Source: Phycisphaeraceae bacterium (lineage in GTDB: Bacteria > Planctomycetota > Phycisphaerae > Phycisphaerales > SM1A02). Taken from it: a stretch of 64,000 bases of DNA. The first letter of the stretch is position 1. Each line of letters opens with the position of its first letter. The position numbers were made by a program, and so were the translations under genes. The notes under the pieces were generated by a model. The model was not told the DNA's origin, did no database searches, and saw only the letters and a list, made by a program, of their open reading frames with translations. Below are positions 8,117 through 26,264 of the stretch, one piece after another. The stretch spans positions 186,001-250,000 of the forward strand of contig JAHBWZ010000004.1 of assembly GCA_019636755.1 (NCBI GenBank). The letters run 5' to 3'.

Positions 8117-10153
8117 ATGGATGAGACGACACATGTGAACGGAGACGCGGGGGGGAACGACCGCGGCGGTCAGCCATCGCGCGCCATGCCGGACAGTCGC
8201 CGCGACTCTGCGGATCCGCCGGCGCCACCGGATGGCCCACCGCCGCCACCGTCCGCCGCACGCCATCCCGACAGCGACGATGATCCGCCGTGGCCCTGTC
8301 GCGGCGTGGCCGAGTACGCGTACTGCCCGCGCCTCTTCTATTACATGACCGTGGAAGGCGTCTTCGTTCCGAGTGCGGATACCGAACTCGGCGCGCGGGT
8401 ACATCGGCGCGTCGATCGTCCGAGCAAGGGGATGGCACGCCTTCGCGCCAGCGCGGCCGATGGCGAGGGACCAGGCGCGCAGGACCAGGCGCCCAGCGAC
8501 GCCGACGAAGACGAAGACGGTGATGACGATCGCCCGGACGACGCCGACCGTCCGCGGTCGGTGCGCTCGCTCACGCTGAGCAGCGCGTCACTCGGCGTGA
8601 CCGGCCGCCTGGACCTGGCCGAGATCTCCGGATCGACCGCCATCCCCGTCGAGTACCGCAAGGGACGCCCCGATCGACGCAACCGCGACCCCGAGCCCGT
8701 CGACGAGATGATGGCGGACGTGCAGCCGTCGCTGCCGTACGACGGCGCGCAGCCGTGGCCGACCGACCGCGTGCAGGTCGGTCTGCAGGTCCTGCTCCTG
8801 GAGGAGGCCGGATACCACGTCCCCCACGCGGTCCTGTACTACGCGGCGGAGCGGCTCCGCCTGGAGGTGCCCGCCGACGACGCGCTTCGCGCCGAAGCGC
8901 GGCGCACGCTCGAGGCCGCGCGCCGCGCCGCGCGCGGGCCACGCCCGGCGCCGCTGGTCAACGACCCGCGCTGCCCCCGCTGCTCGCTCCAGCCCGTGTG
9001 TCTGCCGGACGAGGTCAATCACCAGCGCCAGTGCGCCGCGGCCACCGCTGTCCCCGCCGACCCGCCGGCCGGCGATCTCTTCGCGCGAACGCCGCCGTCC
9101 GTGCCCGCACCACCGCGCCGGGCGATGTGGCCCCCGCGCGACGACGGGATCCACGTGGTCCTGCAGCGCGAGGGCATACGCGTCGGCGTCCGCGGTCAGT
9201 CCGTGCGCGTCACCGATCGCGACGGCGCCACCGTCCGGGATCTCCCGCTGGCCAACATCGAGTCTCTCGCGGTGCTGGGCGGCGTGCAGGTCTCAACCCA
9301 GGCGCTCACCGTCTTCGCCGACCACGAGATCCCCGTCGCCTTCCTCAGCGCAGCCGGACGACTGGTCGCCATGATGGACCCGCTCGGTCCGACCAGCAGC
9401 GCGGTGCGCAGCGCGCAGGTCCGCGTGCTGGACCGCGCGTCCCGTGCCCTGGAACTGGCACGCGCGGTCGTGATGGCGAAGATCAGCAATCAGCGCACGC
9501 TGCTGATGCGCAACCACGCCGACCTGCCGGCGCGCGTCGCCAGCGAACTGCTGCTCGCGCTCCAGGGCGCGGAGCGGGCTGCCACGATGAATGAACTGCG
9601 CGGCCACGAGGGCAACGCCGCGTCGATCTACTTCCGCCATTTCGCGGGGATGTTCAAGCCCGGCGCGATCGAGGTGGCGCAGGCGTTCTCCACCCACGGT
9701 CGCGCCCGCCGGCCGCCGCCCGACCCGATCAACGCCGTCCTTTCGTTCGGATACGCGATGCTGGCGAACGAGTGCACCGCGGCGTGCCGGCTCGCCAGCC
9801 TGGAGCCCTCCCTCGGCGCCCTGCATACGACGCGCCCGGGCCGCCCCGCGCTGGCGCTCGACCTCATGGAGCCGTTCCGCCCGCTCATCGCCGACTCCGT
9901 GGCCATCTCCGCGTTCAACCGCGGCGAACTGACGGAAGGCCACTTCCTCCGGACCGCCGCCGGCTGCGCGCTGACCGACGCCGGCCGGCGCGGCTTCTTC
10001 TCCGCGTACGGACGGCGGATGGAGACGGTCATCAGTCACCCGGTGTTCGAGTACCGGCTGTCCTACCGCCGCATGCTGATGCTGCACGCACGGCTGATCG
10101 CCGCCTGGCTGCTGGGCGAGGTCCCCACGCTTGCGTTCCTGACGACACGATGA
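8117..10153 (+). CDS. cas4-cas1: Cas4-Cas1 fusion, CRISPR adaptation nuclease/integrase
   Basis: 678 residues. Cas4 part (about 60-310): first Fe-S cysteine in YAYCPRLFYY (C70), nuclease residues H96, D166 (GRLDL), E179 and K182 (VEYRKG), then the Cys triplet C286, C289, C295. Cas1 part (about 345-678): beta-sheet N-domain followed by a helical domain with metal ligands E498 (GHEGN), H570 (ALHTTRPG) and E585 (DLMEPFRP). Cas4 trims prespacers and checks the PAM; Cas1 with Cas2 inserts them at the leader-proximal repeat. Fused Cas4-Cas1 is known from V-B and some type I loci. Oddities are a 50-residue Pro/Asp-rich N-terminal tail and an acidic insert (residues about 125-148) after H96. cas2 follows 104 bp downstream. 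Confidence 0.95.
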   Translation: MDETTHVNGDAGGNDRGGQPSRAMPDSRRDSADPPAPPDGPPPPPSAARHPDSDDDPPWPCRGVAEYAYCPRLFYYMTVEGVFVPSADTELGARVHRRVDRPSKGMARLRASAADGEGPGAQDQAPSDADEDEDGDDDRPDDADRPRSVRSLTLSSASLGVTGRLDLAEISGSTAIPVEYRKGRPDRRNRDPEPVDEMMADVQPSLPYDGAQPWPTDRVQVGLQVLLLEEAGYHVPHAVLYYAAERLRLEVPADDALRAEARRTLEAARRAARGPRPAPLVNDPRCPRCSLQPVCLPDEVNHQRQCAAATAVPADPPAGDLFARTPPSVPAPPRRAMWPPRDDGIHVVLQREGIRVGVRGQSVRVTDRDGATVRDLPLANIESLAVLGGVQVSTQALTVFADHEIPVAFLSAAGRLVAMMDPLGPTSSAVRSAQVRVLDRASRALELARAVVMAKISNQRTLLMRNHADLPARVASELLLALQGAERAATMNELRGHEGNAASIYFRHFAGMFKPGAIEVAQAFSTHGRARRPPPDPINAVLSFGYAMLANECTAACRLASLEPSLGALHTTRPGRPALALDLMEPFRPLIADSVAISAFNRGELTEGHFLRTAAGCALTDAGRRGFFSAYGRRMETVISHPVFEYRLSYRRMLMLHARLIAAWLLGEVPTLAFLTTR

Positions 10154-10257: not shown

Positions 10258-10548
10258 ATGCGCCGATGCTTCCTGGTCTGCTACGACATCCGCGACCCGA
10301 AGCGCCTGCGGCAGGTCCACAGACTCATGAAGGCGTACGGTGAACCGTGGCAGTACTCCGTCTTCTGCTGCGTCCTGCGGTCGATCGACCGCGTCCGCAT
10401 GGAAACGGAACTGCGCGACATCACGAACCTGCGGGAAGACCAGATCCTGATCGTGGACCTCGGCGCCCGGGAAGACGCCGCCCGCGAATCCAGCACCTTC
10501 CTCGGGCCCGGGATGCCGGAGCCGGAGAGCGGGATGGTGGTGATCTGA
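10258..10548 (+). CDS. cas2: Cas2, CRISPR adaptation subunit
   Basis: 96 residues, normal family length. The ferredoxin-like N-terminus FLVCYDIRDPKRLRQV carries the conserved Asp (D10), and YSVFCCVL is the typical second strand. GAGG precedes the ATG by about 9 nt. Cas2 dimers bridge two Cas1 dimers during spacer integration. It lies 104 bp after cas4-cas1 on the same strand and 245 bp before the first clear repeat, so the two form the adaptation operon. Confidence 0.95.
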   Translation: MRRCFLVCYDIRDPKRLRQVHRLMKAYGEPWQYSVFCCVLRSIDRVRMETELRDITNLREDQILIVDLGAREDAARESSTFLGPGMPEPESGMVVI

Positions 10549-10792: not shown

Positions 10793-13700
10793 GTGTCCAT
10801 CGATCAGGATCGCGTCGGCCACCGCGACGGTCTCCTCGTACGCCTCTCCGAGCGTCTCCGTCCGGTGTCCACCGATCAGGATCGCGTCGGCCACCGCGAC
10901 ATCGAGGCGTTGAAAGATTCAGGGCGTCCGTCGTTGTGTCCACCGATCAGGATCGCGTCGGCCACCGCGACACGTCATCAGCCGTCCTCCAGGTGCTCTT
11001 CCTGGTCGTCGTTGTGTCCACCGATCAGGATCGCGTCGGCCACCGCGACGGCAAGGCCGTACGACGCGATGTCGAACAGCAGATCGTGTCCACCGATCAG
11101 GATCGCGTCGGCCACCGCGACAACTCGCAGGAGGCCGAACCGGACGAGGCCGAGGAGTGTCCACCGATCAGGATCGCGTCGGCCACCGCGACCAACGTGT
11201 TCGCGGCCGAGATCACGCCGACGCCGCAGTGTCCACCGATCAGGATCGCGTCGGCCACCGCGACGCGCGACCTATGGAATCCACGGGCGAGATTATCCAG
11301 TGTCCACCGATCAGGATCGCGTCGGCCACCGCGACTCAGCACGCCTCCAGGCCTTGAGCCCGAGCCGAAGTGTCCACCGATCAGGATCGCGTCGGCCACC
11401 GCGACACCAACGCCGCAGCCACGGCGTCCGGCTACGTGCTGTGTCCACCGATCAGGATCGCGTCGGCCACCGCGACATCGGGACGGCGCGAAGATGCGCG
11501 TGATCGCGCCGTGTCCACCGATCAGGATCGCGTCGGCCACCGCGACAGGGCGGCACCGGGGCAGGGCGGCACCGGGGCCGATGTGTCCACCGATCAGGAT
11601 CGCGTCGGCCACCGCGACCGGCAACGGGACAGTCAACGCGCTCCCGCCGAACCAGTGTCCACCGATCAGGATCGCGTCGGCCACCGCGACCCGTCGCACC
11701 ATGGCGGTCCTGCTCGCAGCCGGCGCGTGTCCACCGATCAGGATCGCGTCGGCCACCGCGACCATCTGGACGGCGAGAAGATGCGCGTGATCGCGCCGTG
11801 TCCACCGATCAGGATCGCGTCGGCCACCGCGACCCTGCGGGCTCTGCAGCCGGTCCCGGCCGGGGGCGGGTGTCCACCGATCAGGATCGCGTCGGCCACC
11901 GCGACCTGTGTGTGTATCGTCACTGGGACGCCCATCTAGTGTCCACCGATCAGGATCGCGTCGGCCACCGCGACCGGTGGGATAGGTCGGTGGTTCCGTA
12001 CGAGTGCAAGTGTCCACCGATCAGGATCGCGTCGGCCACCGCGACCACACCGCTTCGGCCGCGTTCGCGGTGGGCATCATGTGTCCACCGATCAGGATCG
12101 CGTCGGCCACCGCGACGCCCCATGCGGCTGCCAGGCCCGCCAAGATAGGCTGTGTCCACCGATCAGGATCGCGTCGGCCACCGCGACGACTACAACGTGG
12201 CCATGGCGCTGTTCACCTACGAGCGTGTCCACCGATCAGGATCGCGTCGGCCACCGCGACCGTCGCGGGGCGGGCTCACGCGCCCGCCCCGTGATCGTGT
12301 CCACCGATCAGGATCGCGTCGGCCACCGCGACGGTGCCGGCGCGTCCAGTGATGCGGATGGCGCCCGAGTGTCCACCGATCAGGATCGCGTCGGCCACCG
12401 CGACGGGTCGTCGACGTCAACGACTACATCTGGACCGACCCGTGTCCACCGATCAGGATCGCGTCGGCCACCGCGACCGCAGTGATGGAGGCGAACAACG
12501 ATGACCCAACTGGTGTCCACCGATCAGGATCGCGTCGGCCACCGCGACGTCTGCGCCGCTCATCACCCCGACTGGCAGGCGCAGTGTCCACCGATCAGGA
12601 TCGCGTCGGCCACCGCGACCGCACCGCGATGCCCAGGGTCTGCATGGCCGCTCCGTGTCCACCGATCAGGATCGCGTCGGCCACCGCGACCTTCCGCCGC
12701 TTCTTCGCGGCGATGGAGGGAGTAGTGTCCACCGATCAGGATCGCGTCGGCCACCGCGACGGTCAGCGAGAAATCGCCGCCCGCCGGGTCCACCAGTGTC
12801 CACCGATCAGGATCGCGTCGGCCACCGCGACTCAAGCGTGACCGGCACCGCCTCGCGAACTTCATGTGTCCACCGATCAGGATCGCGTCGGCCACCGCGA
12901 CCGACGCTGGAGCATGAGCGTCGGTCAGGCACTCGGGTGTCCACCGATCAGGATCGCGTCGGCCACCGCGACCGCGACGGTCGAGATCATCGCGATCCGA
13001 GGCGGCGTGTCCACCGATCAGGATCGCGTCGGCCACCGCGACCTCCGGCTTGTCGCCGACCACTGCCTCGATGGCAGGTGTCCACCGATCAGGATCGCGT
13101 CGGCCACCGCGACGCCGCCGATCGGGACTGGCTCCAGTCGGACGCCGGCGGTGTCCACCGATCAGGATCGCGTCGGCCACCGCGACCATGTCGCTGATCC
13201 GATTCGCCAGCGGTCTCGGGATGTGTCCACCGATCAGGATCGCGTCGGCCACCGCGACCAGATCAAGGACATGCACGCTCGCATGGTGGCCGCGGTGTCC
13301 ACCGATCAGGATCGCGTCGGCCACCGCGACGTGATCCGTGGGCGTCGATGATAGTCGATGGTGCGTGTCCACCGATCAGGATCGCGTCGGCCACCGCGAC
13401 GACGCGCTTCGCCCACGCGCGGTCAGAGCCGCACGCGTGTCCACCGATCAGGATCGCGTCGGCCACCGCGACCACCATCCCGCCCACGTGTCAACTCGGT
13501 TCGACTCGGTGTCCACCGATCAGGATCGCGTCGGCCACCGCGACGCTCGACGACGACAAGATCGCGTCGATGGAGGACACGTGTCCACCGATCAGGATCG
13601 CGTCGGCCACCGCGACCGCATGCCGGCCGGCTGGGATGAGTTGGTCGACGAGAGTGTCCACCGATCAGGATCGCGTCGGCCACCGCGACGGAGCCGGACT

Positions 13701-16172
13701 GTGTCGAATACGTGCTTCATCGCGGTGTCCACCGATCAGGATCGCGTCGGCCACCGCGACATGGCGTACCCCGCATTACGGTTGAGCCCCTTGATAGGGT
13801 GTCCACCGATCAGGATCGCGTCGGCCACCGCGACACCCCGTGCGCGTGCTGGTGACGTACAGGCACATCGAGGTGTCCACCGATCAGGATCGCGTCGGCC
13901 ACCGCGACCGGGGCGCCGCAGCCAGCGCCTCCGAGCGGCATCGTGTGTCCACCGATCAGGATCGCGTCGGCCACCGCGACGTTGAGCTGACAGCTATGCC
14001 GCCGATCCCTGTTCGAGTGTCCACCGATCAGGATCGCGTCGGCCACCGCGACAACCGCCTGCCGTCGATCACCAGGCTGCAGCACCAAGTGTCCACCGAT
14101 CAGGATCGCGTCGGCCACCGCGACTCCGCGTGCCAGGCATGCGGCATATTGTCCACCCGTGTCCACCGATCAGGATCGCGTCGGCCACCGCGACTCCGGA
14201 GCCGGGCGGGGCAAGATCCGGCGAGGCTAGGTGTCCACCGATCAGGATCGCGTCGGCCACCGCGACGTTCTGGCCGGCGCAACGACCGCGTCGTACTTCT
14301 CGCCGTGTCCACCGATCAGGATCGCGTCGGCCACCGCGACCCGACGCGACCGGGCCGGCGCAACTTCCGGACCACGTGTCCACCGATCAGGATCGCGTCG
14401 GCCACCGCGACTCCCTTCCTGCCGGCGTCGCCGGCGATTGAATGAGTGTCCACCGATCAGGATCGCGTCGGCCACCGCGACCATCGGCGGCATAGCTGTC
14501 AGCTCAACTCATTTTCGTGTCCACCGATCAGGATCGCGTCGGCCACCGCGACTGGCTGATTCAGGACCCGCGTATCCGAGATTGTGGAGTGTCCACCGAT
14601 CAGGATCGCGTCGGCCACCGCGACTCGGCGGCGTCGACCCGGCCTCTCGGGACACCACGAGTGTCCACCGATCAGGATCGCGTCGGCCACCGCGACCCAC
14701 CAGTGCGTCGTGCTCACGCTGCGATCGATCAGGTGTCCACCGATCAGGATCGCGTCGGCCACCGCGACCTGGCGCGCCTTTCGCGCCGAAGACGCCCTCG
14801 TCATGTGTCCACCGATCAGGATCGCGTCGGCCACCGCGACCAGTTGCGTTCGTGGCGCACAAAGAAAACGAATCGGTGTCCACCGATCAGGATCGCGTCG
14901 GCCACCGCGACCGCCGCTCAGCCGAGCTTGCGGAGTTCCTCGTCGTAGTGTCCACCGATCAGGATCGCGTCGGCCACCGCGACCACCAGAGAGGCGTGGT
15001 CCGCGTCAGCCGCATCGCGTGTCCACCGATCAGGATCGCGTCGGCCACCGCGACGTGACCCAGACGAAACCCAAGATCACCGACAACGCGTGTCCACCGA
15101 TCAGGATCGCGTCGGCCACCGCGACCCCCGCGGAATCTCCGCGAGAGCCAGCGAAGCTGCTGTGTCCACCGATCAGGATCGCGTCGGCCACCGCGACCTC
15201 TCAGGAATCGACGCGATCGGCGGTGGACTCGTGTGTCCACCGATCAGGATCGCGTCGGCCACCGCGACGGCAGAGCGAGTGGACGCGGGAACGAGGTCAT
15301 TGTGTCCACCGATCAGGATCGCGTCGGCCACCGCGACGCGACCCGCCGAGATCAGGCCGCAGTGTCGCAAGGGTGTCCACCGATCAGGATCGCGTCGGCC
15401 ACCGCGACCGCCTCTCGCGTCCATGCCAGCTGTCTCCGTCATCAGTGTCCACCGATCAGGATCGCGTCGGCCACCGCGACGTTCGCCGGCGGATATCTCA
15501 TCGGCTGACCGCCGCAGGTGTCCACCGATCAGGATCGCGTCGGCCACCGCGACCCCTCCGCGGAAGGGCTGGCGCCATGCTCGTCGTAGTGTCCACCGAT
15601 CAGGATCGCGTCGGCCACCGCGACCTCCGCTGTCGCGACTGCCGCCGCCAAATCTATACGTGTCCACCGATCAGGATCGCGTCGGCCACCGCGACCACGG
15701 TGCCGCCGTCCATCCCCCACACCGCCAGCTGGGGTGTCCACCGATCAGGATCGCGTCGGCCACCGCGACGCGCGCGATCAAGGGCGCCCCGACTGCAAGC
15801 ACTTCTCGTGTCCACCGATCAGGATCGCGTCGGCCACCGCGACCCACCTGCGCCCAATAGTCACCAACTGGGATGATGTGTCCACCGATCAGGATCGCGT
15901 CGGCCACCGCGACTACACGCCATCGACCGGGACGCAGGTGCCGCGTCCGATCAGATCGCGTCGGCCACCGCGACGGGAGGGGTCGGTCCGCGGACGTGTC
16001 CACCGATCAGGATCGCGTCGGCCACCGCGACTCCTGCTCCGTCCACTGGTCGAGGTGGGTGCCGCGTGTCCACCGATCAGGATCGCGTCGGCCACCGCGA
16101 CGCCTCGTCGGAACCCGGACAGCGCAGGTGGGGGAAGTGTCCACCGATCAGGATCGCGTCGGCCACCGCGAC
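10793..16172 (-). CRISPR. Type V-B CRISPR array, about 76 repeat units
   Basis: 36-bp repeats recur every 69-78 bp, mostly 70-73, leaving spacers of mainly 33-38 nt (one of 42). On the + strand each reads GTGTCCACCGATCAGG then ATCGCGTCGGCCACCGCGAC. I counted 75 full-length copies plus one shortened copy ending at 15974; the terminal copy at 10793 has T for C at position 8. On the - strand the repeat begins GTCGCGG and ends CGGTGGACAC, resembling V-B repeats, which end in GTGGCAC. Together with decayed copies at the left and the anti-repeat at the right, this indicates transcription from about 16.2 kb towards 10.8 kb. Spacers look like coding DNA of GC-rich phage. Repeats are nearly invariant, as expected of an active array. 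Confidence 0.97.
15914..15995 (-). repeat. Collapsed repeat-spacer unit inside the array
   Basis: Between good repeats at 15878-15913 and 15996-16031 lies one damaged unit: a repeat of about 30 nt (15945-15974) missing bases near its + strand 5' part (reads GTCCGATCAGATCGC) and a following gap of only 21 nt. It lies three repeats from the presumed leader. Confidence 0.75.
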
Positions 16173-16390
16173 GCCCCACCTCCCGGCCCCTCGAAAACAA
16201 GCCATTTGCTCAGCAACTCGCGAGCGTGACTCGACTCGAGGGCCCGGACGGCACCTCGCAACGACCTTCGGTGCAGCGAATTCGGCGGAATCTGGCACGC
16301 CACAGCCGCTGCGAGCGTGCCCGGCACCCCCCATCACCACCGTCGCACTCGCGGTGGGGGCCGCAGGAGGCCGACTTGTCAACGAGCACC
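16173..16390 (-). promoter_or_regulatory. Presumed CRISPR leader
   Basis: Non-coding stretch between the last repeat and the tracrRNA candidate. Read on the - strand, it ends with a locally AT-richer segment (GCAAATGGCTTGTTTTCGAG) about 20-40 nt before the first repeat, as leaders often do. No clear promoter was identified. The call rests on array polarity. Confidence 0.5.
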
Positions 16391-16503: not shown

Positions 16504-16532
16504 AATGTATCAGCCCTCTCGTTCCGGCACAA
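16504..16532 (-). promoter_or_regulatory. Promoter-like element before the tracrRNA candidate
   Basis: TTGTGC (16532-16527) and TACATT (16509-16504) are separated by exactly 17 nt on the - strand, a reasonable sigma-70 pair. It sits in the last codons of cas12b and would start RNA near 16497. Confidence 0.5.
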
Positions 16533-19500
16533 GATCAGCAGATGGGGCGGGCAACCCGTTCGCCAGCCAGAGCGCGGCAACGACCCGCTTGCGGACCCAT
16601 CGCCAGTATGCGGGGGTTGGGAGCCAGAACCCGCCGCTCGCAGCATTACGCAGCGCGTTGCCGCGTGGATCAGACCAGAAGTTGGTGGTCTCCTTGTTGC
16701 CATCGGCGGTCGAGCCTCGCAGCCTCTGCCGGCGAGTAGAGCGTGCCTGTCCGTCGGAGGAGTCACGGGCGCTTGGCGTGAGAAGCGAGCCAAACTGCTC
16801 CGGCTTCGAGGAATCGGGTCCGAAGCACACGGAGCCCTTCACTTTGTCCGCACGAGGAACGGCGGTGCCCGTGACCTTGTCCTCGATGCACGGGATGTAC
16901 CACCACCTGCCGGGGAAGTCCGGGTCGAGCAACGCCCGCAAACCAATGTTGGCCGCCGCGTTCAGGTCTGCCTGGAGAGCGCTACGGTGACGACTGTTGG
17001 TCGCGGCCACGTTGGACGGCGCGGTGACGAACAGGTCGCCACCGGCACGCGGAAGACGGAGCGTACGTTGACTGCTCGTGTCCAGGTCACTCGCACCGAT
17101 CCACTTCTCCCGCAGCGCCACGAGCAAGTGATCCAGCGAGTCGGCGCCGTTCTCCCGGAGCCGCCTGACCGCGCCGTTCACCGCCCTGTTCCACCACGGA
17201 GCGGTCAGGAACTCGTCAATCGGCACATCGTCGCAACGCAGCCCCGGCAACCCGGTACGGCTGCACTGCCGGCTCGTGTAGTTGGGCATGACCTCACGCA
17301 AGTGCAGGCCGTGGAGCTGGCAGGCTTCTTCAAGGTACTTGCGGACCCTGCCGGCGGACCAGTTCATCAAGGCGCGGTTTTCGCGGCGGGTCTGGAGTTC
17401 GTCGGGGCGGTAGTTGCGGAGTGATTCGATGACGACGGCATGACAAATGGCATCCACGGGCGCCTGCGGACGTTTGCGATCACGACCGTGTGTCATCCGC
17501 GCACGACCCACACCAAGAGCCGCTTCGACGATCCGACTGGCGATCTGCTTGACGCGCTGTTCGCGCAGGCGCTCGACGGTCTCCAGTACGGAACGTCCGA
17601 ACCCGGCGAACCGATCATCATTCCTTTCGGCGATATTCTTCCGCAGGCCCCCCGGCTCTGGGCGCATGGCATACGCCTTCTGCACCTGATACAGATCTCG
17701 GATCGTCGCTATGCGCGCCAGCGATAGTCCCCCGACGTTGCGTGCTGCGCCGCGCCGGGCCTTGCGCGCCGCAGCCTGCGCGCCGGTCTCCCCATCAACA
17801 GGTCGAAGACCTCGCGGCAGGAGCAGGCGTCGAAGCTGCCTGAGGCGCGGGCGCCACGCGGCGTCGTCCACCGTCCAGCGTTCGGCCCAGACGGCGAACA
17901 TCCCATCGGTCCCTCGCTGAGTGAGCGACACCGCGACCGGAGCCAGCGCTTGTTCCGCTGCCGCACGGTGGCGCTTGCGTTCGCCGGCGTCCGCATCGGG
18001 TGCGATCGACGGCAGGTCCGCTTCGAGCATCGGTCGTATGTGAGCCTGCCAGGCTTGCTTTGCTTCGCGATCGTCCCAACGGTCACTTGTGGCAAGTCCA
18101 TGCCAGAGCATCAGCGCGTCGAGAATCGCTCGCGTTCGCGTCTCCGCAGTGTGCTCCTCTGCCCCTCCGCCCGGTGTGAGTCTTGCAGAACCGGGCTTGA
18201 ACGCGTAAGCGATGCGAGCCGCATCGCCATGCCGACGCAGTGCCAGGCGCGCCAGTCGCACCGCATCGCTCAGAAGGTCATCGATGCGCATTGGAAGCTG
18301 GTTTCGATCCTCGCGGGCATATCCCAACTCGGACTCCATCCGCCTGACCGCATTGAACTCATCCGGTGATGCCTTGCGAGCGGAGGACTCCTCGCCCTGG
18401 AGTTTGATAAGGAACTGGCGATCAAGCCTTGCCCAGGGGGCAGGGTGCTCTGAACCGTTCGGCAGTTTGTCGCAGCCTATGCGACGATAGATCGTCGTGC
18501 GCTCGTTACCGGCACGATCCGTATGACGCGTGTGGAGGTATAGATCAGTCGCGTCGGCGCCACCATCGATTACCGAACGACCGGCGACTTCTCTCACAAG
18601 TTCAGCCTGCGAGAGTGTCTCCCACACGGCACATGCCCCCGCGAAGCGATGGCCGAGATCAACGGAAAGGACACGAAGGCCGGGCAGTCGCGAGAGGATC
18701 AGTTTGGCGTGGCCCTCCCGTCTATCGGCCTTGTTCCGATCTGCGTTCGGATAGTATTCCCCTTTCCGGTTCGCATTGATTCCATTCTGCGCCGCATAAT
18801 CGATGAACGATCCACGGCACTCCAATTTCGCGGAGAACGTGACCAGCCACGCGAGTCGGTCTCGCATCCGTTTCGCCTTGTCATCCCATCGGCCGCCGTT
18901 GCGATCGAGGTATATGGCGAGGTCGTCCAGTTGCGACCGCGGCGCCTGGAGCCGGGCGTTCCATTCCGCCTGCGAGAGCAACCCTGCAGGCGACGGAACT
19001 TCACCGGGCCTGATACCTGAAGCGGCGCGGCCCAGGCGGTCCGCCCGCGATACGCTGCGGATCTGTCCGCTGGGCGCGGCCTGACCGAGTGCGAGGTCCG
19101 CTGATAGTCGCTTGCAGCTCCACCGCAGGTCGACGTCGCTCATCACGTCGCCCGTCCACAGCCCGAGTCGGACAATGCGCGGATTCCCGAGGCGGCGTTC
19201 GTCCTGAGCGCTGATGCGCCGCCCGCCACGCGCTGCCTTTGCGGCTTCAAGCGCTGAGTACTCCACTTTCCATCGCGAGTTACCGAAGTCACCAAACACC
19301 GGATGGCGCAGGGCATCCGGGTGACGGTACGCAGGCACCTTGAATCGGCGCTGCTTGAATCGCGCGTCGTGGGCGAACACGTAGTCCTTGAGACGATCAG
19401 GCGCTACCTTGTTATCGTTCTGCCACACACACAGGGCATCGTCCGAGGCGAGCGCCTCGAAGAGCTGAATGTCACCGAACTTCTCGATCTCAGGATCGGC

Positions 19501-20916
19501 CTGCACTTCGCGTGCAGCGGCAACCCGATCCACTGCGGACGCGCAAGGCGGTCTCTTCCATCGCTTCAGGACCTCATCCCACCCTTCGACCGCGCGACGC
19601 CGGATGCGGTATTCACCTCCGGCAGAGCCGCCTCGCTCCTGCACATAGGCATCAAGCCAGACAGCGGCATTGGCTGGAACGGTGCCGAGCCTCTGCGCGT
19701 CGGCTTCGAATCGGCGGCGCTCGGCTTCGGCACGCTTGATCCATGAGTGGCCGATGGCGACCCGCCGGGCAGCGTGATCGAGCATGACGGAGAACTCACC
19801 GATGTGGTTCCGATGATCGACAAACGGCATTCCAACTGCCGCTTCGAGGGAGGACCGGAACGCGGACATCCAGCCAGGGACGTCCCGTGTCCCAGACTTC
19901 GCCTCTTTGTCATCCGCCTCTTCTGCGAACTTCTGCTGCACCGCCTCAATTTCGGCCTTCGTCGGGCGATCCGGGAGCTTCTCGACGGCGAGCCGCCCCT
20001 TGGACGGGCGACCGGTGGTCCATCCGATTCCGACGCGCAGCCCGTCAAGGTCGGATGTTGGGCCGTTCACCTTCCCGGACATCGCTTCGATGAGTTCAGC
20101 CTTGGGACGATTCGCAAACCCGACCAACTCCGCCTTGGCAAGTCGACGAAGTGACGTGACGATGTGATCAGTGTCGCTCTTCAGGCCTGTACCGAAGTTT
20201 GTGCTGATCCATTGGCGGGCCTTCTGCTTGAACTTCGAGTCGTCGTCGCCTGCGGCGAGTGTGACACCGTCATCGGGGCCCGTATCTGGAAGTGAGAAGT
20301 AGTCGTCGGCAGGACCAAAGAACGACAGCACTATCTCGGTGGCATACGCGCGTGTGAGCCCCTTGAACTCGGCAGCTTTGGCGTCGAATAGTGCGCTGCG
20401 ATTCACCCATACGGCGTCATCGCGAATACTCGCCGAAAGAGAATCGGCGCAATCCTCAACCCATGAGTCAATCGAGCGTGTGTCGATCCTGTGACCCACA
20501 AGGATGGATCGGAACGCCGCGAGCACCTTGTCGCGCCGAATAGAGTCGGTGTCCTGCCCGCTGGCGACTCGAGTTGCGCCCTCTGGAGCGCCTCGCGCGT
20601 CCTCAACACTCAGCCACGACAGCGCAAGCAGAATGCGGCGGTTCTTCCGCAGCGCGGCGGTGCCGTCATCATGAAGGCTCTTCTCACTCGACGGTGGCAG
20701 CTCAGCCAAGTCGTGGCGAAGTCCACCGCGCAACGTCAACAGCCACTCCCCGAAGGCTCTGGCGCCCCTGTTGACCGCCTCATGCGTGGCCCACAGGGCT
20801 TTTCGCCATGCGTTGTCTCTCGAGTCGGCGCCGCGCAGACGGAGTGTGTAGGCTCGCTGCGTAGAGTGACTCGGGGTCTCCCGGGGCGTGGCGACTGGAC
20901 CGGATTCATGCGCCAT
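16510..20916 (-). CDS. cas12b: Cas12b-like type V-B effector nuclease, extra long
   Basis: 1468 residues; RNA-guided DNA nuclease. The RuvC triad is intact: D753 (LSVDLGHRFAG), E1164 (VVIESLRNY), D1317 (ALQADLNAAANIG). Strong Cas12b signatures lie between II and III: ALMNWS (about 1183-1188), TSRQCSRTGLPGLRCDDVP (about 1214-1232) and PWWNRAV, which parallel the Alicyclobacillus enzyme. The N-terminus (WRKALWATHEAVNRGARAFG) also fits the family start. Compared with AacCas12b (1129 aa; D570, E848, D977), the distance from RuvC-III to the C-terminus is almost the same, whereas about 180 extra residues lie before RuvC-I and about 130 between RuvC-I and II. ATG 20916 has TATACT 7 nt upstream. Base composition looks less GC-rich than the neighbours, suggesting transfer. 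It faces the adaptation genes across the array. Confidence 0.93.
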   Translation of the reverse strand: MAHESGPVATPRETPSHSTQRAYTLRLRGADSRDNAWRKALWATHEAVNRGARAFGEWLLTLRGGLRHDLAELPPSSEKSLHDDGTAALRKNRRILLALSWLSVEDARGAPEGATRVASGQDTDSIRRDKVLAAFRSILVGHRIDTRSIDSWVEDCADSLSASIRDDAVWVNRSALFDAKAAEFKGLTRAYATEIVLSFFGPADDYFSLPDTGPDDGVTLAAGDDDSKFKQKARQWISTNFGTGLKSDTDHIVTSLRRLAKAELVGFANRPKAELIEAMSGKVNGPTSDLDGLRVGIGWTTGRPSKGRLAVEKLPDRPTKAEIEAVQQKFAEEADDKEAKSGTRDVPGWMSAFRSSLEAAVGMPFVDHRNHIGEFSVMLDHAARRVAIGHSWIKRAEAERRRFEADAQRLGTVPANAAVWLDAYVQERGGSAGGEYRIRRRAVEGWDEVLKRWKRPPCASAVDRVAAAREVQADPEIEKFGDIQLFEALASDDALCVWQNDNKVAPDRLKDYVFAHDARFKQRRFKVPAYRHPDALRHPVFGDFGNSRWKVEYSALEAAKAARGGRRISAQDERRLGNPRIVRLGLWTGDVMSDVDLRWSCKRLSADLALGQAAPSGQIRSVSRADRLGRAASGIRPGEVPSPAGLLSQAEWNARLQAPRSQLDDLAIYLDRNGGRWDDKAKRMRDRLAWLVTFSAKLECRGSFIDYAAQNGINANRKGEYYPNADRNKADRREGHAKLILSRLPGLRVLSVDLGHRFAGACAVWETLSQAELVREVAGRSVIDGGADATDLYLHTRHTDRAGNERTTIYRRIGCDKLPNGSEHPAPWARLDRQFLIKLQGEESSARKASPDEFNAVRRMESELGYAREDRNQLPMRIDDLLSDAVRLARLALRRHGDAARIAYAFKPGSARLTPGGGAEEHTAETRTRAILDALMLWHGLATSDRWDDREAKQAWQAHIRPMLEADLPSIAPDADAGERKRHRAAAEQALAPVAVSLTQRGTDGMFAVWAERWTVDDAAWRPRLRQLRRLLLPRGLRPVDGETGAQAAARKARRGAARNVGGLSLARIATIRDLYQVQKAYAMRPEPGGLRKNIAERNDDRFAGFGRSVLETVERLREQRVKQIASRIVEAALGVGRARMTHGRDRKRPQAPVDAICHAVVIESLRNYRPDELQTRRENRALMNWSAGRVRKYLEEACQLHGLHLREVMPNYTSRQCSRTGLPGLRCDDVPIDEFLTAPWWNRAVNGAVRRLRENGADSLDHLLVALREKWIGASDLDTSSQRTLRLPRAGGDLFVTAPSNVAATNSRHRSALQADLNAAANIGLRALLDPDFPGRWWYIPCIEDKVTGTAVPRADKVKGSVCFGPDSSKPEQFGSLLTPSARDSSDGQARSTRRQRLRGSTADGNKETTNFWSDPRGNALRNAASGGFWLPTPAYWRWVRKRVVAALWLANGLPAPSADLVPEREG

Positions 20917-21964: not shown

Positions 21965-24055
21965 ATGCGGCGTGGGTCATCAGGAGCGGAGGAAACGATG
22001 CCTGGGATGTCTTCTTCAGCCGCGGCCCGGCCGGCCCCGGCTCGTGCAGGCCGTCGCGTCCTGCGCCCGTCGTTGTTCACGTGGTGGGTGCGCTGTGGGG
22101 TCGCGGCCGCGATCCTGCACACCTCGACAGCCAGCGCGTCCGATCCCTCCCACGACGCGTTCACCTACCAGGGACAACTCCGGCACGACGGCGATCCCGT
22201 CACCGGACCCGTCGGACTGACGTTCCGCCTGTTCGACGCCGCGAGCGGCGGTGTCCAGGTCGGCCCTGACGTCAGCGCGCCTGGCTTCAGCGCCTTCGAC
22301 GACGATGGCCGCTTCACCATCGACCTCGCCTTCGGCAAGGGCGTGTTCGACGGCGCGGCGCTGTGGCTGGAGATCCAGGTCGACGACACGGTGCTCTCGC
22401 CGCGCCAGCCGATCATGCCCGCGCCGTACGCGGTCCGCGCGCTGAACGTGGCGGTGGTCAGCAACGCCGCGCTCGCGGGCACGTACAGCGGGGCTCTCAA
22501 CTTCACCAACCCGGGCAACACCTTCGTCGGCTCGGGCGCGGGGCTCACCTCGCTCCATGCCGGCAGCCTCACCACCGGCACGGTCGGCATCGAGCGCATG
22601 CCGCCGGGCGGATCATGGTCGCTGGCGTCGAACCTCGGCATCACCGGGGGCAACGTCGGCATCGGCGCCGGCAGTCCGACGATCACTCTCGCCATCGGCG
22701 ACAACGGCACCGGGTTCCACCGGCCAGCCACGGACGTGCTCGCGCTGCATTCCGCCGGCACGGAGCGCGTCCGCGTCACGAGCAACGGCGACGTGGGCAT
22801 CGGCCAGGACTCGATCCCGACCGCGAACCTCGACCGTCGTCGCCTGCACGTCAAGGGCCATGGCGGGACCAATGTCAACGGCATCCGCCTGACGCACGGG
22901 ACGTCGGGAGTCAACTGGGACCTCCTCATCGGCGGCTCCGCCAACAGTTTCCCCGGTGGTCTCGCCATCGCGCACGAGGGCAGCGCCACGACCGGCCTCG
23001 TGCTCCGGGACAACGGCCATCTCGGCGTCGGCACCGCGGCGCCGCCACACCGCCTGACCGTCCAGACGTCCCCGGGCGCCTTCGGCATCCAGCACACCGA
23101 CGGGGTCCGCGACGTGACGACGTTCGTCAGCGCGACCGGCGGCTGGATCGGCACGCGCGCCGATACGCCGCTCCATCTGTACGCGGCGGACTCGCCGGCG
23201 CGGATGACGATCACGCAGAGCGGCAACATCGGCATCGGGACGGCTGCGCCGGACTATCCGCTGACCGTCTCCGGAAGTGCGAAGATCAGTGGCAACGTCG
23301 CGATCGGCAATGCGATCCCGTTTCATCCGCTCACCGTCGTCGGCAACGCGACCGTCAGCGGCAACTTCGGCATCGGCGCCCTGATCCCGCAGCGCAGACT
23401 CCACATCATCGGAGAGGGCGGCAGCCAGGTGAACGGAATCCGGGTCATGCATGGCAGCGAAGGAAGCAACTGGGACCTCGTCGTCGGCGGCGACGCCACC
23501 GGCTTTCCCGGCGGTCTCGCCATCGCGCGCGAAGGCAGTTTCACGACGGGCATCGTCCTCTCCGCCGCCGGGAACGCCGGCGTCGGTCTCACGAATCCCT
23601 CGTTCCGCCTGGACCTGCCGAACATCGCCGGCCCAACCGGCCAGGGGCGGGCCAATGCCTGGACGACCTACTCCTCCGTCCGCTGGAAGGAGAACATCGT
23701 CTCCATCGACGACGCCCTCGGAAAGTTCCTGGCGCTGCGCGGCGTCGCGTTCGACTGGAAGGCCGGGAACGGCGGCGGCCGCGACATCGGCTTCATCGCC
23801 GAGGAAGTCGGCGCGGTCGTCCCCGAACTCGTCGACTGGGAGGAGGACGGCGTGCATGCGAAGTCGCTGAAGTATGACCGCGTCGCGGCCATCGCCGTCG
23901 AAGCCCTGCGCGAACTCCGCGCAGAGAAGGATGCGGACATCGCATCGCTCCGCGCGGAGAAGGACGCGCAGATCGACGCACTCCTGGCGCGGGTGGCCGC
24001 GCTGGAGGCAACGCTGGAACGCGTGCTTGCCGGGGCACGACGCGGTCCCATGTGA
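21965..24055 (+). CDS. Secreted tail-fibre-like protein with C-terminal S74 chaperone domain (1)
   Basis: 696 residues; ATG 21965 is preceded 8 nt by AGGAGG. A long N-terminus (RPAPARAGRRVLR, then a hydrophobic WWVRCGVAAAILHTSTASA) suggests export. Residues about 60-160 form a domain shared with the next gene (DAFTYQGQLRHDG, TFRLFDAASGG, LWLEIQVDDTVLSPRQPI). The middle consists of repeats of the type GNVGIGxxxPxxxLxV seen in phage tail fibres. The end (about 566-640) is a peptidase S74-type intramolecular chaperone (SSVRWKENI, DIGFIAEEVGAVVPELV), followed by a coiled coil (LRAEKDA repeats). The S74 domain typically trimerises a beta-helical shaft and cuts itself off. It is probably a trimeric surface fibre; the ligand is unknown. 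Confidence 0.75.
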   Translation: MRRGSSGAEETMPGMSSSAAARPAPARAGRRVLRPSLFTWWVRCGVAAAILHTSTASASDPSHDAFTYQGQLRHDGDPVTGPVGLTFRLFDAASGGVQVGPDVSAPGFSAFDDDGRFTIDLAFGKGVFDGAALWLEIQVDDTVLSPRQPIMPAPYAVRALNVAVVSNAALAGTYSGALNFTNPGNTFVGSGAGLTSLHAGSLTTGTVGIERMPPGGSWSLASNLGITGGNVGIGAGSPTITLAIGDNGTGFHRPATDVLALHSAGTERVRVTSNGDVGIGQDSIPTANLDRRRLHVKGHGGTNVNGIRLTHGTSGVNWDLLIGGSANSFPGGLAIAHEGSATTGLVLRDNGHLGVGTAAPPHRLTVQTSPGAFGIQHTDGVRDVTTFVSATGGWIGTRADTPLHLYAADSPARMTITQSGNIGIGTAAPDYPLTVSGSAKISGNVAIGNAIPFHPLTVVGNATVSGNFGIGALIPQRRLHIIGEGGSQVNGIRVMHGSEGSNWDLVVGGDATGFPGGLAIAREGSFTTGIVLSAAGNAGVGLTNPSFRLDLPNIAGPTGQGRANAWTTYSSVRWKENIVSIDDALGKFLALRGVAFDWKAGNGGGRDIGFIAEEVGAVVPELVDWEEDGVHAKSLKYDRVAAIAVEALRELRAEKDADIASLRAEKDAQIDALLARVAALEATLERVLAGARRGPM

Positions 24056-24086
24056 ACCACACACGCACGCAGAACACCAGGCAGCC

Positions 24087-26264
24087 ATGACCCACACCAC
24101 GATCATCCTGACGACGCTCGCCCTCGCGGCGACCACGCTACTCCCCGCCCCCGCGGTGCGGGCCGACGATCCCGGCCACGATGCGGTCACGTACCAGGGG
24201 CAACTGCGGCACGACGGCTCGGCCGTGGCCGGGCCGGTCGATCTGACGTTCCGGCTCTACGACGCGGCGACCGGCGGCCGGCAGGTCGGCGAGGAACTGC
24301 TTGCCGGCGGATTCGCCGACTTCGACGCCGAGGGGCGCTTCACGCTGGACCTCCAGTTCGGGAAGTCCACGTTCGACGGGACGCAACTCTGGCTGGAGAT
24401 CCAGGTCGACGACACGGTGCTCTCGCCGCGCCAGCCGATCCGCCCCGCGCCGTACTCGATCCGTGCGCTGGACGTGGCGGCGGTCAGCGACGGCGCCCTC
24501 GCCGGCGCGTACTCCGGCGCCCTCCAGATGACGAATCCGTTCAACATGTTCAGCGGCTCGTTCTCCGGCAGCGGCGCTGGACTGACCGCCCTTGACGCGG
24601 CCCACGTCAGCACCGGCAACCTCAGCAGCGCCAGAATGCCCACGGGCGGACCCTGGACGCTCGCGTCCAGCCTCGACGTCAATGCGGGCACGTTCTTCAT
24701 CAGTTCCGCCAGCAGCCACGTCGGCATCGGCACCGATGCGCCGGCATCAAGACTCCATGTCGTCGACACCGGCTCCGTGGCGATGTCGGTCGAGTCATCT
24801 TCGGTCATCGGCACCTGGCTCAACCTGCGAAACACCAGCGCCGGCGGGAAGTTCTGGCGCCTCATCTCGACGGGCAGCGGAAACGGCGAAGGCGCCGGCA
24901 GGCTGCTCATCGGCCATGGAGCGACCGCGGGTTCGCAGGTCACCCGGATGACACTCGATGACAGCGGCAACGTCGGCATCGGCACGACCTCGCCCCTGGC
25001 CAGGCTGCACGTCCAGGGACAACTGCACCTCGCCGGCACAGGTCAGGACATCACCTGGCCCGCCGCCGAGGCGCTCCAGTTCGGCCAGTGGGACGGTACG
25101 GCATTCACAGAGCGGGCCCGCATCACGAGTACGGGCAACGTCGGCATCGGCACGGCCTCGCCGACGAATCGACTCTCCGTCGACGGCGACGCGAACGTCA
25201 CCGGTTCGCTGACCGCGGCGTCCTTCAGCGGCAGCGGTGCGGCGTTGAGTTCGCTCCACGCCGGCAACATCAGCACGGGGACGCTCAGCGTCAACCGGAT
25301 GCCCACGGGGGGAACATGGTCACTCTCCAACACGCTCAACATTGCCGGCACTGCTGACCCGCTCATCCATGCGTGGACCACGGGCGCCATCGTGCAACGG
25401 CTCGTATCACCCCATTCCTTCGGCACACAGCTGCTCCTGACGAATGTATCGACGGGAGGTACCACGTGGTCCGTGATCTCCGCGGGCGAGGTCCATGGTG
25501 CCGGCAAGCTCGTTTTCCAGAATGGAGCCCTGGTCCGCCTGGCGATTCAGCCTGACGGCAACGTCGGCATCGGCACCTCATCTCCCACGGACAAGCTCTG
25601 CGTGGATCCCAATGGCAGCGGCGGCATTGTCATCGGCACGCCGGAGATCACCGACGGCGGGCGGTCGGCCCTCGTGCTGCGGGTCAAGGGCGCCTCGAAC
25701 GCCCACAGCAGCATCCAGGCGATCCGCAGCGCCGGCAGCCAGTATGGCAACCTGCTTCTGAATGAAAGCGGCGGCAACGTCGGTATCGGTGTCAGCGTGG
25801 CCTCGTACCTCCTGCACGTCGGCGGAGACGCCGCGAAGCCCGGCGGCGGCTCGTGGTCCGTCGCGTCCGATGCGCGCCTCAAGACCGGCGTCGACGATCT
25901 TCACGGGTCGCTGGACGCGCTGCTTGCCCTGCGCGGCGTCAGTTTCGAGTACATCGATCCTGAGTCCATCAGCGAACTGCCCGGGCGCCAGGTGGGCTTC
26001 ATCGCGCAGGAGGTCGAGCAGGTCTTTCCGCAGTGGGTCGACGAGGCGGGGGACGGCTACAAGCGCCTGACCATCCGCGGCTTCGAAGCCATCGCCGTCG
26101 AAGCCCTGCGCGAACTCCGCGCGGAGAAGGATGCGCAGATCGAGGCCCAGCAGGCGCAGATCGAGGCGCAGCAGAGCGACATCGAGGCGCTGCGCGAAGA
26201 GATTGCCCGGCTGCGCCATGTCGTACACGAGATGATCTCGAATCAGAAGGAACGCGTCCGATGA
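24087..26264 (+). CDS. Secreted tail-fibre-like protein with C-terminal S74 chaperone domain (2)
   Basis: 725 residues; the ATG at 24087 opens a clean signal peptide (IILTTLALAATTLLPAPAVRAD). It is a paralogue of the preceding gene: the same N-terminal domain (DAVTYQGQLRHDG, LWLEIQVDDTVLSPRQPI), more GNVGIGTxSP-type repeats (at least four), and an S74 chaperone from about residue 590 (SVASDARLKTGV, VGFIAQEVEQVFPQWV) ending in a Gln/Glu-rich coiled coil (QQAQIEAQQ). It starts 31 bp after the first paralogue and overlaps the next gene by ATGA, so the three genes form an operon. Probably a second subunit of the same surface structure. Confidence 0.75.
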   Translation: MTHTTIILTTLALAATTLLPAPAVRADDPGHDAVTYQGQLRHDGSAVAGPVDLTFRLYDAATGGRQVGEELLAGGFADFDAEGRFTLDLQFGKSTFDGTQLWLEIQVDDTVLSPRQPIRPAPYSIRALDVAAVSDGALAGAYSGALQMTNPFNMFSGSFSGSGAGLTALDAAHVSTGNLSSARMPTGGPWTLASSLDVNAGTFFISSASSHVGIGTDAPASRLHVVDTGSVAMSVESSSVIGTWLNLRNTSAGGKFWRLISTGSGNGEGAGRLLIGHGATAGSQVTRMTLDDSGNVGIGTTSPLARLHVQGQLHLAGTGQDITWPAAEALQFGQWDGTAFTERARITSTGNVGIGTASPTNRLSVDGDANVTGSLTAASFSGSGAALSSLHAGNISTGTLSVNRMPTGGTWSLSNTLNIAGTADPLIHAWTTGAIVQRLVSPHSFGTQLLLTNVSTGGTTWSVISAGEVHGAGKLVFQNGALVRLAIQPDGNVGIGTSSPTDKLCVDPNGSGGIVIGTPEITDGGRSALVLRVKGASNAHSSIQAIRSAGSQYGNLLLNESGGNVGIGVSVASYLLHVGGDAAKPGGGSWSVASDARLKTGVDDLHGSLDALLALRGVSFEYIDPESISELPGRQVGFIAQEVEQVFPQWVDEAGDGYKRLTIRGFEAIAVEALRELRAEKDAQIEAQQAQIEAQQSDIEALREEIARLRHVVHEMISNQKERVR

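Follow-up and report, generated by a model that had tools for sequence, protein, structure and literature searches.

Two spacers of a type V-B CRISPR array in a Phycisphaeraceae bacterium, numbers 44 and 51, very probably go back to variants of one invader lineage, from which they would have been captured in two separate, PAM-directed events. The two share a 26-nt stretch on opposite strands, and because this overlap goes beyond chance while the ends of the spacers differ, independent captures of one locus are the most likely reading of their sequences. The analyzed window is a 64,000-nt stretch (positions 186001-250000 of contig C15) of an assembly of 4.11 Mb, which is estimated to be 99.43 per cent complete; all coordinates below are those of the window.

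The window carries a V-B CRISPR-Cas locus made up of a cas4/1 fusion, cas2, the array, and cas12b.

8117-10153, plus strand: cas4/cas1 fusion gene, 678 aa (NCBIfam NF049935, 610.9 bits; cut-off 560)
10258-10548, plus strand: cas2, 96 aa (Pfam CRISPR_Cas2 and TIGR01573, both above cut-off)
10793-16172, probably minus strand: type V-B CRISPR array with 74 exact 36-nt repeats, its leader end probably at the right
16173-16332, minus strand: conserved array flank with a GCGAGYRTG motif, the likely leader
16510-20916, minus strand: cas12b, 1468 aa (NCBIfam NF033949, 987.5 bits; cut-off 150)

The product of the fusion gene also exceeds the cut-offs of Pfam Cas_Cas1 and Cas_Cas4, as does the Cas12b product that of Pfam C2c1_RuvC-like. 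The locus shows these features of V-B membership: a Cas12b above its family cut-off, cas4/1 and cas2 genes that adjoin the array, and regular repeats. The fusion resembles its type I-G counterpart in that the family it matches, NF049935, is named Cas4g/Cas1g, and the Cas4 domains of V-B and I-G fusions are closely related according to the cited part of a V-B adaptation study (PMC9419969). The locus differs from type I-G in its effector and is assigned to V-B rather than I-G because that effector is Cas12b. The Cas12b frame of 1468 aa compares with 1253 positions in the family model and with stop-to-stop frames of 1148-1781 aa in full-length relatives; one relative, in a Phycisphaerae bacterium, is 66 per cent identical over the best segment. 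Elsewhere in the window, two adjoining large open frames (21965-24055 and 23874-26264) each have a near-C-terminal Peptidase_S74 domain (chaperone of endosialidase; Pfam PF13884), with scores of 50.3 and 56.6 bits, respectively.

Besides the exact repeats, the array contains a one-mismatch repeat at 10793 and a shortened repeat within 15914-15995. Between the 74 exact repeats lie 73 intervals, 72 of which are well-formed spacers of 33-42 nt (35 or 36 nt in 49 of the 72). The other one, interval 71 (15914-15995), is an 82-nt composite, and it was excluded from the spacer counts, shuffles, simulation, and cross-array comparison. In it, a shortened repeat of about 30 nt, with bases missing in its first half, sits between spacers of 31 and 21 nt, two intervals from the presumed leader end; the other 74 repeats are identical. 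Spacer 10 (11547-11582) consists mainly of two copies of one 16-nt unit.

The opposite-strand pair comprises the following features.

13981-14016, minus strand: spacer 44, 36 nt, probably the older member; it overlaps spacer 51 over minus-strand guide positions 11-36
14482-14516, minus strand: spacer 51, 35 nt, probably the younger member; it overlaps spacer 44 over minus-strand guide positions 9-34
13981-14006, plus strand: the 26-nt overlap as carried by spacer 44, the exact reverse complement of 14483-14508
14483-14508, minus strand: the 26-nt overlap as carried by spacer 51 (reverse complement)
14007: discordant base, C in spacer 44, where the equivalent base of spacer 51, at 14482, implies G

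The initial annotation had described an exact 26-nt reverse-complement overlap with one discordant base just past it, and both are directly observed. Among the 72 well-formed spacers, a match of this kind is expected by chance about 1e-9 times. Both spacers are flanked by exact 36-nt repeats. Only 27 positions can be compared, of which 26 match, as the remaining ends meet repeats; the merged known stretch of the target is 44 nt long. In 200 Markov-shuffled spacer sets, in which only distinct spacers were compared, the best ungapped score was 10-16, against an observed 26 for the pair 44/51 and 28 for a further pair, 9/13. A spacer was also allowed to match its own reverse complement in an earlier control with 40 sets, of which 39 scored 11-16 and the remaining one 24.

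A palindromic or repeated host element shared by both spacers had been named in the initial annotation as the alternative to double sampling. With up to three mismatches allowed, the 26-mer has no occurrence in the host genome other than the two spacer copies, and no self-match of spacer 44 or 51 is among the best 25 rows of the all-versus-all comparison. We therefore rejected a host repeat or palindrome as the source, although a repeat or insert in the roughly 0.6 per cent of the genome estimated to be missing from the assembly may provide one. Duplication or inversion within the array was also rejected, because each spacer holds sequence that is absent from the other: 8 nt are private to spacer 51 and 10 nt, the first being the discordant base, to spacer 44. 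Since each carries such private nucleotides, neither spacer was copied from the other. The overlap, the lack of further copies in the host genome, and the private ends support the proposal that the same invader was sampled twice, from both strands, and the single mismatch among 27 positions suggests that the sampled genomes differed slightly.

The only other pair above background in the comparison of all spacers of the window is on one strand.

11477-11510, minus strand: spacer 9, 34 nt, probably the older member of the second resampled pair
11763-11797, minus strand: spacer 13, 35 nt, with the same target and right end as spacer 9

Spacers 9 and 13 differ at positions 22 and 31 from their common right end. 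In a manual reading of the minus strand, one frame would make one of these changes synonymous and the other a Ser/Ala swap.

Resampling of this kind also occurs in related arrays. Related loci were gathered by BLAST with the array and by Cas12b searches; Cas12b was above its cut-off in 6 of 392 genomes of the phylum, 21 of 397 genomes of the class (the host is counted in both), and 11 of 16 genomes chosen from BLAST matches. Of 31 loci fetched, 4 gave way to a different stretch of their genome, and the 27 examined yielded 24 arrays, 5 of which have three or fewer spacers. Cas12b exceeds the cut-off in 21 of the 24 array genomes, has a match below it in one (G417), and has no match in two (G462 and G375). 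Together with the window, the comparison set comprises 25 arrays and 595 spacers.

Twenty-three rows of this comparison score at least 16, and all except one join spacers that belong to the same array. In the exception (G184/G264), two genomes that share their repeat share an identical spacer as well. We treated 16 of the 22 within-array rows (11 in G357, 4 in G234, and 1 in G323) as duplications of a unit or as non-array repeats and did not count them as pairs, since their members either match in length and ends or fall into one small family; a few bases separate some of them. Setting these rows aside was a matter of judgement and would hide identical re-captures. The six pairs kept are 9/13 and 44/51 of the window, 83/101 and 109/114 of G001, 16/17 of G200, and 21/33 of G268; they score 21 to 33, and ten shuffled collections did not exceed 16.5. 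Two pairs (44/51 and G268 21/33) are opposite-strand, four share an end on the same strand, and none is shifted on the same strand. All six differ in sequence (apart from 44/51, by two to four substitutions or apparent small indels), a count that is favored by the treatment of identical equal-length copies as duplications. Five of the six were already present in an earlier round of 12 arrays and 388 spacers. The G268 pair (locus L044) overlaps over 34 nt with two mismatches. In the two same-end pairs of G001 (L028), the PAM-distal parts differ by apparent small indels, and one spacer is 46 nt long. The second resampled pair of the window and the four pairs from related arrays, one of them opposite-strand, argue for two captures as the origin of 44/51.

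The same pairs bear on the orientation of the array. All four same-strand pairs have coincident right ends and differing left ends. This fits a right spacer end that is fixed by the PAM, with guides that would be read on the minus strand next to a 5' PAM; in the cited part of a study of overlapping spacers, the ends are uniform on the PAM side and heterogeneous on the opposite side (PMC3468723). By inspection, 8 of the 10 arrays compared have the GCGAGYRTG motif roughly 50 nt away from their last repeat (the exceptions are G213 and G323), and no such conservation was seen in the left flanks of the compared arrays, of which that of G200 is just 45 nt long. At its left end, the window array has the one-mismatch repeat and a more degenerate copy, and the mismatched terminal repeats of G424 and G213 are likewise at the left. 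Contrary to a right-hand leader, the shortened repeat of interval 71 is near the right end, and G001 has mismatched repeats near both ends. The conserved right flank and the coinciding right ends of the same-strand pairs lead us to place the leader at the right. With the leader there, both PAMs of 44/51 lie outside the known 44 nt, and spacer 51 is the younger of the two. The tail-to-tail layout proposed in the initial annotation, in which the flanks that can be reconstructed are PAM-distal on a minus-strand reading, agrees with this orientation.

Under the favored explanation, the Cas4/1-Cas2 machinery would have sampled a single locus of one invader lineage on two occasions, each time taking a separate fragment. 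One fragment would have adjoined a PAM on one strand and the other a PAM on the opposite strand, so that the protospacers would overlap tail to tail by 26 bp with their PAMs facing outward, and the sampled invader genomes would differ by one base among the 27 comparable. We infer that the source was a phage or other mobile element, that 51 was acquired after 44, that the PAM is 5', and that the discordant base reflects a difference between invaders. Alternatively, fragments of one site could have been inserted in opposite orientations, one of them without a PAM on the proper side. Two opposite-strand pairs do exist, and the nearly complete 34-nt overlap of G268 21/33 needs either PAMs near both ends or such a flip. 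For 44/51, in contrast, the ends differ by 8 and 10 nt, which makes the fragments distinct, and the known flank, where the PAM of a flipped spacer would fall, reads ATGA (spacer 44) or CAGG or AGGG (spacer 51) instead of NTTN, a 5' PAM that was measured for another V-B system in the cited assay (PMC9419969) and is assumed for the window array. A flipped insertion was on these grounds rejected for 44/51 and is the least probable of the explanations considered, being highly improbable.

Spacer 51 ends on its PAM-distal side with the discordant base, which corresponds to position 10 of guide 44. Its simplest reading is a polymorphism of the invader, because the other five pairs also differ in sequence. 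The base alone, as distinct from the double sampling, could instead be an artefact of end processing or an untemplated addition. Its position at the PAM-distal end of spacer 51 would suit such an artefact, as would the frequency of a plus-strand C there (34 of 72 spacers; P = 0.026 before correction for the twelve positions tabulated). Among seven PAM-distal terminal bases that are comparable by inspection, that of spacer 51 is the only one in disagreement with its partner; those of window spacers 44 and 9, G001 83, G200 16, and G268 21 and 33 agree. This comparison left out G001 109/114, in which an indel makes the alignment ambiguous, and window spacer 13, G001 101, and G200 17 end outside their partners. 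Such an artefact is rather unlikely.

If the base is the invader's, it could reflect an escape: the invader would have changed position 10 of target 44, and spacer 51 could have been taken from the escaped form. Counted from the expected PAM side of guide 44, the discordant base is indeed the tenth, and the spacer that contributes it is presumably the younger one, and the mismatches of G200 16/17 fall at positions 1, 3, 10, and 12. Yet it is a single base at a terminal position of spacer 51, the sole differences between spacers 9 and 13 are at positions 22 and 31, at which an escape would be less expected, and ordinary divergence between invader strains accounts for the pairs equally well. We consider escape followed by re-immunization improbable. 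Even less credence is due to the broader proposal that the V-B lineage prefers, for re-immunization, loci that are among its existing targets and have since changed in the invader, which is based on the six differing pairs and on the change at position 10 of the target of the older guide; it would be very unlikely.

The initial annotation had also raised primed or hotspot acquisition. In a primed-like process, recognition of the invader by guide 44 would stimulate capture nearby and give rise to spacer 51, which is on the presumed leader side, overlaps the target of 44, and differs by one base. Cas12b may cut its target within positions 10-36; spacer 51 spans these very positions of target 44, and if the cut falls there, spacer 51 does not come from a cut end. 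Moreover, seven positions of the array separate the two spacers, and spacer 51 is the sole one of the other 72 intervals to overlap the target of 44 above background. The cited part of the V-B study reports no sign of primed adaptation, and acquisition there did not require Cas12b (PMC9419969). That study assayed the Alicyclobacillus acidoterrestris system in Escherichia coli from plasmids (PMC9419969), and so does not exclude priming in the system of the window. Neither the pair itself nor that assay lends support to priming, and target-linked acquisition appears only marginally less improbable than a flipped insertion.

A hotspot, at which a locus is captured unusually often owing to free DNA ends or a strong PAM, is the more plausible of the two suggestions, if still doubtful. 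Two targets were resampled in one array of 72 spacers, and the cited part of the V-B assay describes a bias toward sites of RecBCD activity (PMC9419969). However, 44/51 and 9/13 are different sequences, and neither site was captured more than twice in the array. We simulated 72 spacers drawn by uniform, PAM-limited sampling from random 40-kb genomes of 66 per cent GC, with 60 runs for each number of invaders. At least one opposite-strand pair appeared in 72, 32, and 10 per cent of runs with one, three, and six invaders, respectively. An opposite-strand pair and a same-PAM pair appeared together in 47 per cent of runs with one invader and, in favor of a hotspot, in just 7, 2, and 3 per cent with three, six, and twelve. 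Against a hotspot, a single 40-kb lineage under uniform sampling already gives on average 1.27 opposite-strand and 1.13 same-PAM pairs (and 1.40 shifted same-strand pairs), so that no excess is shown if one such lineage supplied the array. The corresponding means for opposite-strand, same-PAM, and shifted pairs were 0.33, 0.33, and 0.45 for three genomes, 0.10, 0.12, and 0.17 for six, and 0.08, 0.18, and 0.13 for twelve. One dominant invader lineage would thus need no hotspot, whereas with many equal lineages the two pairs together would be unlikely without one. The six observed pairs (two opposite-strand, four same-end, none shifted) are too few for a test against the simulated proportions.

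Against the preferred reading of two PAM-directed captures, the invader and both PAMs were unseen in all sequence scans, and NTTN is borrowed from another V-B system. The initial annotation had proposed that the protospacer be located and its PAM flanks read; for the two resampled targets of the window, no protospacer was found in viral contigs, genome contigs, or family genomes, and no window spacer had a convincing one in named phages or plasmids. The exact 26-mer had no match in viral contigs or genome contigs, and a search of 181 family genomes with up to three mismatches returned only the spacers themselves. The 9/13 target was likewise absent from viral contigs and, at up to three mismatches, found in the 181 family genomes only as the spacers themselves. 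Codon-degenerate patterns made from assumed reading frames of the 44/51 and 9/13 targets, and patterns from three related-array pairs, had no match in viral contigs. BLAST of the whole array against named phages gave five records and nothing convincing, all being one 29-nt Gordonia phage stretch that straddles a repeat and spacer 8 (E = 0.5); against plasmids it gave 26 records (best E = 0.01), which we read as chance in GC-rich DNA. The G001 array (7952 bases) gave 77 phage records, with E-values of 0.06 to 0.7 among the 15 matches listed. Class-wide BLAST of the array, a weak search for protospacers in which two candidates per genome were scored, matched 59 of 397 genomes, and the strong matches that were fetched are other arrays. 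Within the host genome, 40 of 168 BLAST candidates were scored, and six matches outside the array (81-93 per cent identity, E = 2e-4 to 0.01) were judged to be chance.

Several traits of the locus are shared with known systems. Like the A. acidoterrestris V-B system, as described in the cited part of its study, it has a cas4/1 fusion, cas2, and Cas12b; the commonest spacer length is 35 nt there and 35-36 nt here; and protospacers are on both strands, as they appear to be for the window pair (PMC9419969). The two differ in that the former was studied in a plasmid assay with a measured PAM, whereas the window holds a natural array with an assumed PAM (PMC9419969). In Sulfolobus, the cited text describes contigs of overlapping spacers from both strands with uniform PAM-side ends, a likeness to the present pairs, in a different CRISPR type with a CCN PAM and newly and hyperactively inserted spacers (PMC3468723). 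Overlapping spacers are rare in natural Sulfolobus loci according to the same text (PMC3468723), compared with 6 pairs among 595 spacers of natural arrays here. Overlapping spacers from both strands are, going by that text, a phenomenon already in print (PMC3468723), here seen in a known type of system.

The pair 44/51 leaves the known picture of V-B adaptation unchanged, as repeat sampling is known and also occurs in the related arrays. If preferential re-immunization were nonetheless true, it would amount to a target-linked route of V-B acquisition that the E. coli assay missed. The related arrays provide natural, assay-independent support for one fixed, PAM-side end of V-B spacers. For the host itself, the resampled targets indicate repeated encounters with at least one invader lineage, which had drifted from one encounter to the next.
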